The notes beneath the pieces were generated by a model, which ran no database searches, was not told where the DNA came from, and was given only the letters and a program-made list of their open reading frames with translations. Source: Arenicola marina (taxonomy: Eukaryota > Annelida > Polychaeta > Arenicolidae). Taken from it: a DNA stretch of 64,000 bases. Positions 2,922-5,900 of the stretch are shown here, piece by piece. The position numbers and the translations under genes are program-made. How positions within the stretch are numbered: position 1 is the stretch's first letter; each line of letters starts with the position of its first letter. The stretch covers positions 13,523,574 to 13,587,573 of the forward strand of contig OZ025248.1 in NCBI GenBank assembly GCA_964019135.1. Direction: 5' to 3'.

Positions 2922-5900
2922 CTGCATCACAAACCCAGGGAACCAGTTTAACCACGGAACAGATTTGTGCGAAGAGCACTTAAATCGTAGAATAAATTTA
3001 TCATCACTCACCACCAGTATCTTACTGCCCTGTTATCCCCACTCACCACCAGTATCTTACTGCCCTGTTATCCCCACTCACCACCAGTATCTTACTGCCC
3101 TGCCATCACCACTCACCACCAGTATCTTACTGCCCTGTTATCCCCACTCACCACCAGTATCTTACTGCCCTGCCATCACCACTCACCACCAGTATCTTAC
3201 TGCTCTGTTATCCCCACTCACCACCAGTATCTTACTGCCCTGCCATCACCACTCACCACCAGTATCTTACTGCTCTGTTATCCCCACTCACCACCAGTAT
3301 CTTACTGCCCTGTTATCCCCACTCACCACCAGTATCTTACTGCCCTGTTATCACCACTCACCACCAGTATCTTACTGTCCTGTTATCACCACTCACCACC
3401 AGTATCTTACTACCCTGTTATCCCCACTCACCACCAGTATCTTACTGCCCTGTTATCACCACTCACCACCAGTATCTTACTGCCCTGTTATCACCACTCA
3501 CCACCAGTATCTTACTGCCCTGTTATCCCCACTCACTACCAGTATCTTACTGCCCTGTTATCACCACTCACCACCAGTATCTTACTGCCCTGTTATCCCC
3601 AATCACCACCAGTATCTTACTGCCCTGTTATCCCCGCTGACCACCAGTATCTTACTGCCGTTATCCCCACTCACCACCAGTATCTTACTGCCCTGTTATC
3701 ACCACTTACCACCAGTATCTTACTGCCCTGTTATCCCTACTCACCACCAGTATCTTACTGCCCTGTTATCCCCACTCACCACCAGTATCTTACTGCCCTG
3801 TTATCACCACTTACCACCAGTATCTTACTGCCCTGTGATCCCTACTCACCACCAGTATCTTACTGCCCTGTTATCACCACTCACCACCAGTATCTTGCCT
3901 TCCTCCGGAATGAAGTCGGCCACGAAGTAGGCTCGGTCCTGCCCTCCTAAGTGTGTACGCTGACCGTACGTCCAGTAATGGACACCTGAGAAACAACACG
4001 GCTATCAAACACACAACACTGCAGCTGTAGAACTTCTGTCTTTTGTGCAGTTACAGTAGTTCTGTTATTTAGGTTTCTCATAGAACATTAACACAGAAAA
4101 CTCCGAAGAACCTAATCGACAGTAAAACTCGCTATAGTAAATTCTCACATATCCGATTCCTAATCATAACGCATCTGGCCGACTAGCATGCCAGCCTTCC
4201 AGGACCACCATCAGTGTGCCCACAAACAAGTCCATCCATACATCGAATCTGATATCAATAACACCAAAGGCATCGGTTAAAGAAGCCAGTTGTTGCACAG
4301 AAAGCATCTTAAAGCCACTCTTTCAAGCTGCGTATAAAGTAACATTAGTTATATCACGGTTTTCAAGTGTTTTGCGGGAAAAAACCTACTGGACTAATAT
4401 TGTATCGACATATTCACGTTCACGTGAACAGACGGCCAAAAATATAGCCCAATTCTATGACCAGTAAGCCATACCGTCTTTTTATTTAATGCCCATTATA
4501 CACGTGTATATATGCAATAAAGGCATTTTGCCTCAATCATTTTTCAGCTTGGAACTTTAATCGTAATTTAATCGTGACAACCGATGACATCCACCAGATA
4601 TTATATATACCTTTATGTTTTCCAACGACTTCGCCAGTTTCTAAGTCAACAAAGAAACCAGGACTTGGTTCCACGTACTGTAAAGTACAATATAAGTCCA
4701 TCATAATGCAAACATTACGTCAAGAGTGATGGTGTAGGGTTCATTCTGATCATATAAACATGCTTGACAAGCTCTACTGTTATTGAGCAGTGCATACCAA
4801 TAATTGTGATCCACCTACCTAATTAACTAGACGCGATAACAAGATGTGTTCACTTTCATGTCTGAGTTTGCTGAAGAATATGATTATTGCATAGGATCTG
4901 TTTGGAATTTTATTTCCGCTTTCATCTTGGTTATTATTGTCTTGGATCAAATTTATCAGTCACATTGATAGATGCCTCTGATGATATGAGAATTGCTTCA
5001 GTGAAATCTGGACTACGTGACATGCTTACCTCTTCAATGAAATCCTGGAATTGCCGTTTTCCTATGAAACATATTCCCGTGCTCTGAAAGAAGAAAAGCA
5101 CACAGGTTGTAAGATTTCATATCGTACATCAAATTAATCACTTTATAATGATGTTAAACCTCTCCATTTACCTGCATATAAAACTCTGAATATCATAATA
5201 TCATAGTTATATCAAAATATTATTTCTAAGTAACAACGTATTTTACATCATATTGGTTTTGACAAAAGGACTTCGCACACTATCTGTGTATGTGTATGAA
5301 TTATTTTTAGCATTTGAATGAACATATCATTTGCTGTTATCTATGCCTAACTTATCTATCTCACAGAGGACAAAATCTTGCAAGTATTACTTTTAAAAAT
5401 TCAATCATATACCTCTTTCTTCTTAACTATTTTCTCTAACCCTGCAGATAACGCTAGTTGTTTGACAATATCCTTTGTCATGTAACCAACAGGAAACATG
5501 GTCTTTTGCAATGCATCCTGCGAAATCTGCGACAGGAAGAGCGTTTGGTCTTTATGTTGATCAAATGATTTCATCAGTTGAGCCCCTGTGGATGCAACAA
5601 CAAAAACATTTATTTTTAAACCAACAGAGTGATCATTAATTTAGTAGTTAATGACATAAGTGTTTTGAAAATCCACAAATGTGCCACAAACATGTCAATA
5701 GAATACCGACATGTACACATAAGGTTTATTGTGTTCTACTGGGATGTTAAATCTTTAAAGAAATTGTCAATTTATTAAGTTAATTTAACAGTCAACTTAT
5801 GCAGATAAATCCCGGTACCCATGCTTCAATAAAAAAGATCACCTTTCGAGAAAATATTTTGTACTTATGTCAACTTATGTCCACGTGCTCACTTTCATTT

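Follow-up and report, generated by a model that had tools for sequence, protein, structure and literature searches.

The seventh intron of the TRMU gene in the polychaete Arenicola marina contains a minisatellite whose units repeat the end of the preceding exon together with its 5' splice site, so that one true donor is followed by a ladder of near-identical copies. This raises the question of whether such a ladder serves to regulate TRMU, or whether it is the product of a mutational process that the gene tolerates. The window analysed here is a stretch of 64,000 nucleotides, located on contig C1 of the 867-Mb genome, and was compared with exon edges in other genes of the same genome. The mitochondrial contig of this genome, C762 (15,942 bp), carries COX1 with a frame of 519 codons that is open under genetic codes 5, 9, 13, and 24 and broken under code 2, code 5 seeming the right one from its residues. 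The genes recognised in the first 10,000 bases of C762 all run on one strand, probably as nad4L, nad4, a gap, nad1, nad3, nad2, cox1, and cox2, and the contig points to an annelid and away from an amphioxus. We consider it likely that the array arose by local tandem duplication over the exon edge and is tolerated via use of the exon-proximal site, probably through exon definition.

Seven TRMU coding exons (2-8, numbered as in an earlier sequence-only reading of the window) were placed by eye and then translated. The joined frame was identified as TRMU by three Pfam domains of the tRNA methyl transferase (2-thiouridylase) family, namely PF03054 (1.7e-61), PF20258 (1.4e-16), and PF20259 (1.1e-15). 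The frame of exon 7, ending in ...EEGKILV, runs on into exon 8 and reads KILV-VKGTDHP over the junction, with PF20259 and PF20258 found on the joined protein. Within exon 8, the TRMU stop codon is located at 2564-2562 and an ATTAAA follows downstream at 2463; no hint of another intron was noticed, and intron 7 seems likely to be the last of the gene. Exons 7 and 8 have a GC content of 56% and 67%, respectively, and exons 2-4 of 40-47%. The features around the array are as follows.

3885..3985, minus strand: TRMU exon 7, 101 nt; true donor GT at 3884-3883; acceptor ...TTTCTCAG before 3985.
2922..3884, minus strand: TRMU intron 7, 963 nt; acceptor ...TTTGTGATGCAG, followed by exon 8 GTGAAGGGTACC.
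2562..2921, minus strand: coding part of TRMU exon 8, 119 codons plus stop; PF20258.
2998..3896, minus strand: exon-edge minisatellite of 26 donor-bearing units, from unit 1 with the true donor to a partial final unit, delimited by TRF and unit cutting.
3885..3896, minus strand: exonic source of the repeat, AAGATACTGGTG, the last 12 nt of exon 7.
3848..3849, minus strand: GT of the first decoy (donor 2), whose use adds 35 nt.

TRF described the array at 2998-3896 with a period of 35, 25.7 copies, 92% matches, and a score of 1560, and cutting of the minus strand into units gave spacings of 35 bp in 24 of 25 cases and of 33 bp in the remaining one. Each unit is composed of the 12 exonic nt AAGATACTGGTG and 23 intronic nt that open with GTGAGT; the array overlaps exon 7 by 12 nt and occupies most of intron 7. 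The sequence-only reading had derived the 35-bp unit from the last 12 bases of exon 7 and the first 23 of the intron and had it filling intron 7, on which TRF and unit cutting agree. Its range of 3001-3985 was correct within 3 nt (the array extends to 2998, and the range takes in exon 7), and its 'about 25' donor copies become exactly 25 when those after the true donor are counted.

Intron 7 thus holds 26 donors, the true one and 25 copies, at positions 3884, 3849 ... 3011. The GT is kept in all 25 decoys and GTRAGT in 23 of them, while the 12 exonic nt of the units show a single substitution, in unit 11, so that 1 of 12 columns varies over the 24 inner units. The likeness to exon 7 is possibly longer, since 20 nt with at most 20% mismatches are found in 18 of 25 copies, although it is exact for 12 nt only. 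The last unit follows the array, with one difference, over its first 14 intronic nt (GTGAGTGATGATAA), beyond which the likeness ends, leaving 76 nt of non-repeat intron between this unit and exon 8 at 2921. Without the array, an intron of 90 nt (donor 26 to acceptor) would be left, which is probably near the ancestral length of intron 7. The 25 full units comprise 12 different intronic variants, and identical units are commonest at lags 2 and 3 (5/23 and 4/22, vs 2/24 at lag 1), as expected from multi-unit duplication. A genome search with 961 bases gave one place at full identity and 13 further matches of 66-72% identity. To see whether arrays elsewhere share an origin with that of TRMU, TRF was run on three loci (L002, L004, and L006, covering the places behind L002-L008), where it gave a 40-bp unit, an 18-bp G-rich unit with GTGAGT, and simple repeats; these were judged unrelated by eye.

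The reading frame is kept by the first donor only, and the remaining 25 all lead to a TGA. Use of donor 2 gives TGG-TGG-TGA over the exon 7-8 junction, the TGA lying one base into exon 8, whereas donors 3-26 meet a TGA inside the extension in 24 of 24 cases, at the same place of the frame. The sequence-only reading had stated that the first donor alone yields TRMU, that the second adds 35 bases and creates the junction TGA, and that longer extensions hit TGA within the repeat, and the frame analysis confirmed each point. The protein frame suggests that the first donor is the one used. For nonsense-mediated decay (NMD), the stop usually has to precede the last exon junction by more than about 50 nt, a rule that is uncertain in annelids. 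Taking intron 7 as the last, donor 2 would place the stop in the last exon, donor 3 would place it 31 nt ahead of the junction, and donors 4-26 at least 66 nt ahead. Donors 2 and 3 would therefore probably escape junction-dependent NMD, and the nearest decoys, if intron 7 is last, would yield a protein lacking the C-terminal domain, with no clear NMD target. The earlier proposal that array length is coupled to NMD is unsupported and weaker than stated, as the stops of the two nearest decoys, though not those of donors 4-26, would fall inside the usual 50-nt limit.

The same architecture was found in other genes of the genome. When exons anchored by three Pfam families were assessed, 5 of the 57 donor and 3 of the 98 acceptor edges had at least three copies nearby, in addition to TRMU. 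The five donor cases, all of which were checked in sequence or units, are listed below.

Contig C17: chaperonin-family (PF00118) exon end, donor array, 82-91 bp, 6 copies.
Contig C11: chaperonin-family (PF00118) exon end, donor array, 54-60 bp, 10 copies.
Contig C8: chaperonin-family (PF00118) exon end, donor array, mostly 29-35 bp, 39 copies.
Contig C11: carrier (PF00153) exon end, donor array, 77 and 62 bp, at least 15 copies.
Contig C1: mitochondrial carrier (PF00153) exon end (L084, C1:2033001-2039000, array 2311-4040), 91 bp, 18-19 copies, 98% matches.

In the C1 carrier, the array takes in 82 nt of exon and about 10 intronic nt and is located in the following intron, where 17 copies match the carrier domain model with the same piece of the domain every 91 bp. 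Among the PF00270 and PF00004 candidates (46 of 296 and 19 of 151 scored), no equally spaced run of matches like that at C1:2035309-2037048 was seen. The C17 chaperonin gene (L030 and L015; ~26.069-26.071 Mb) combines a donor ladder with two acceptor ladders in neighbouring introns, all within about 2 kb; the acceptor ladders comprise 17 upstream copies at 36 bp and 4 at 34 bp, and the copy needed is the last. The third acceptor case, the 5' edge of an Aldedh exon (C1:647270), has unevenly spaced copies and counts as a candidate. At donor and acceptor edges alike, the exon-proximal site is the one needed by the reading frame. One further array (L014, 41 bp x38) starts at an exon end and stands outside the five, as its copies differ from the donor and one was counted. 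As a separate observation, carrier gene copies on several contigs (L054, L055, L057-L060, L062, L063, and L067) have a 38-bp array close to where the domain match ends, and in the two that were read, L055 and L062, this repeat takes in the stop codon and extends into the 3' flank.

These counts come from a small sample, i.e., 57 donor edges in three families. From 203 profile matches, 113 were counted (49/49, 51/141, and 13/13) and 90 were dropped by eye as lying outside the cut loci or being tandem copies; the dropped matches include at least one within a cut locus (C19:23178174), at whose exon end TRF gave no array. The 113 matches provided the usable edges, the rest having no candidate site or less than 400 nt of flank, and PF00227 matches were not part of the count. 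One of the 57 donor edges (C1:2036941) was chosen because it was already repeat-like, and leaving it out gives 4 of 56; under an alternative donor rule, 4 of 74 edges had at least three copies and the C11 carrier was missed. As a control with the same test, 165 of 931 18-mers (~18%; not mutually independent) taken 40-700 nt downstream of donors were in arrays, compared with 7 of 773 exon-interior 18-mers, all 7 from three of the repeated exons. Donor edges show no enrichment over introns in these counts (5/57 edges vs 165/931 downstream 18-mers) and take a position between exon interior and the surrounding arrays. It thus seems that arrays originate in noncoding sequence and capture exon edges as they extend into the ends of exons.

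Whether decoy donors are under selection was assessed in the six aligned arrays (TRMU and the five), where the decoy GT is kept in 110 of 113 copies. Substitutions per cell amount to 54/3492 in the exon part, 27/635 in the donor hexamer, and 163/1327 in the rest of the unit. The hexamer is more variable than the exon part when pooled and in 4 of the 6 arrays; the order is reversed in the C17 chaperonin array and the C1 carrier array, in which the hexamer is invariant. Within these six arrays, no sign was seen of decoy donors being specially kept or removed. With regard to variable columns, TRMU has 1 of 12 in the exonic part vs 8 of 17 in the rest (p 0.04), and the pooled arrays 32 of 241 vs 34 of 97 (p 1.4e-5), figures to be read with the caveat that copies were found by matching part of the exonic stretch and that G-runs inflate the intronic part. 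In three of the six arrays the difference is not significant, and two of these three lean the opposite way. A neutral array does not obviously predict the low exon-part variation of the other three, TRMU among them, to which the way of finding copies and the G-runs contribute. Two further candidates for a selected feature were rejected: unit lengths that are not multiples of three, given that several arrays have mixed spacings with decoy extensions in all three frames, and premature stops as a special design. In the five other arrays, too, a stop falls within the extension for 85 of 88 decoys, but extensions of this size usually meet one, and hence the stops are no evidence for function.

The recurrence of such arrays in unrelated genes and at both the 3' and 5' edges of exons, together with the variability of the donor hexamers, makes a general mutational process fit better than a TRMU-specific device. 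Under the favoured reading, a local tandem duplication would have captured the end of exon 7 (12 nt, or perhaps as many as ~20) along with the start of the intron, and later multi-unit duplications would have pushed the copies into intron 7, presumably with repeated changes in length and without selection for the copies. The spliceosome would then pair the exon 7 acceptor with the nearest donor, many equal downstream donors notwithstanding, and TRMU would tolerate the array since exon definition selects the exon-proximal donor. The finding that donor ladders need their first copy and acceptor ladders their last suggests exon definition.

An extension of this reading seems improbable to us, namely that the ladders are widespread in this annelid genome, fast-evolving, present at both edges, and held to a strict exon-proximal rule, with repeat length setting a slowly changing splicing error rate that would make them genome-wide rheostats, TRMU included.

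It is somewhat more doubtful that the TRMU ladder itself is regulatory, its decoys competing with the true site by binding U1, so that repeat number would tune the unproductive share of TRMU transcripts. With a rough donor matrix, 20 of the 25 decoys score equal to the true donor, 2 higher, and 3 lower, which together with the premature stop from every decoy and the slight variation in the exonic part of the units would suit such a role. In NMD coupled to alternative splicing (poison extensions), use of another site also brings in a premature stop, but those extensions are usually conserved elements with shown use, unlike the putative sites of the TRMU ladder. The presence of like architecture in genes as unrelated as chaperonin subunits and mitochondrial carriers argues against a regulatory ladder, as do the pooled donor hexamers, which are no more constrained than the exon part, and the probable escape of donors 2 and 3 from junction-dependent NMD. 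The decoy or rheostat for U1 binding that the sequence-only reading proposed for TRMU may be regarded as possible but unsupported. Masking of the decoys by RNA structure was also rejected, since the predicted fold of exon 7 plus its first two to three units (3790-3985) is no better than that of shuffled sequences (z 0.48; 137 of 200 shuffles at least as good).

Equally doubtful is a role of the array as DNA, i.e., as a recombination-prone or regulatory intronic minisatellite that includes the exon edge by chance. In its favour, the genome is rich in minisatellites: arrays of period 10 or more make up ~13% of the window, after merging of TRF rows by hand, and 20% of the exon-anchored loci, a set in which some loci overlap; against it, no shared motif was seen in the six aligned arrays, the units of which differ apart from the donor. 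Lastly, an assembly artefact in the repeat number or the whole array is very improbable, as short repeats do assemble poorly but the 25 full units hold 12 intronic variants and the pattern recurs in several genes.

The TRMU array belongs with the exon-edge minisatellites known as 'mirages' in amphioxus and as 'exon stuttering' in chicken. Amphioxus mirages, described in Adh3 and the globins BflGb6 and BflGb9, are minisatellite-like duplications of intron-exon boundaries that, according to the RT-PCR and Adh3 data of the authors, seem not to disturb splicing; the Adh3 unit is 10-72 bp, both 5' and 3' boundaries are hit, and many copies carry splice signals (PMC3087553). The TRMU array likewise spans an exon-intron boundary with splice signals in its copies, but is found in an annelid, in another gene, and with 25 copies, and length instability and regular splicing are, between the two, reported for amphioxus only. 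In chicken, sequence or exon stuttering copies an exon edge with its donor or acceptor through the adjacent intron in 1-44 copies, and affects 236 introns in 115 genes, 190 of the 236 introns being on dot chromosomes; gerbil genes are also mentioned, and the phenomenon is called novel in a main text that does not contain the word 'mirage' (PMC12954441). As in chicken, exon edges are copied into their own introns in several genes of the present genome, but in contrast to the dot-chromosome bias, the cases here are on contigs of 38-77 Mb (C1, C8, C11, and C17). The link to GC proposed for birds was not reproduced in the exons compared, GC not differing between the six mirage exons and 53 others (p 0.61), although the median of the others is itself 60% GC. 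A search covering part of the literature found no report of exon-edge arrays in an annelid, and the unexplained exon 4 duplications that occur along with intronic minisatellites in earthworm metallothionein (PMC12783039) may be related.

If the pattern holds, boundary-copying minisatellites like those of amphioxus and chicken also occur in a spiralian, and the process would be general and no quirk of chordates or bird microchromosomes. With its many equal donors or acceptors, each array poses a natural test of site choice by the spliceosome, and the donor and acceptor ladders within the single C17 chaperonin gene would directly separate exon from intron definition. Exon-edge arrays also bear on intron lengthening and on the origin of new splice sites.

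Several other features were observed in the window. An open frame of 1276 aa (6922-10752, plus strand), followed by a poly-A run and apparently within a TRMU intron, is by eye taken to be a LINE with endonuclease and reverse transcriptase, and a small gene adjoining TRMU (~420-1280, plus strand) reads like, and presumably is, PQBP1. Two 33-bp arrays with a nearly identical unit are located 8 kb apart (20531-20805 and 28610-29941), and a 41-bp array with ~42 copies and 93% matches (35978-37687) has three open frames on the minus strand. An open frame at 16083-17141 (minus strand) contains a Methyltransf_24 domain (Pfam 3.5e-13).
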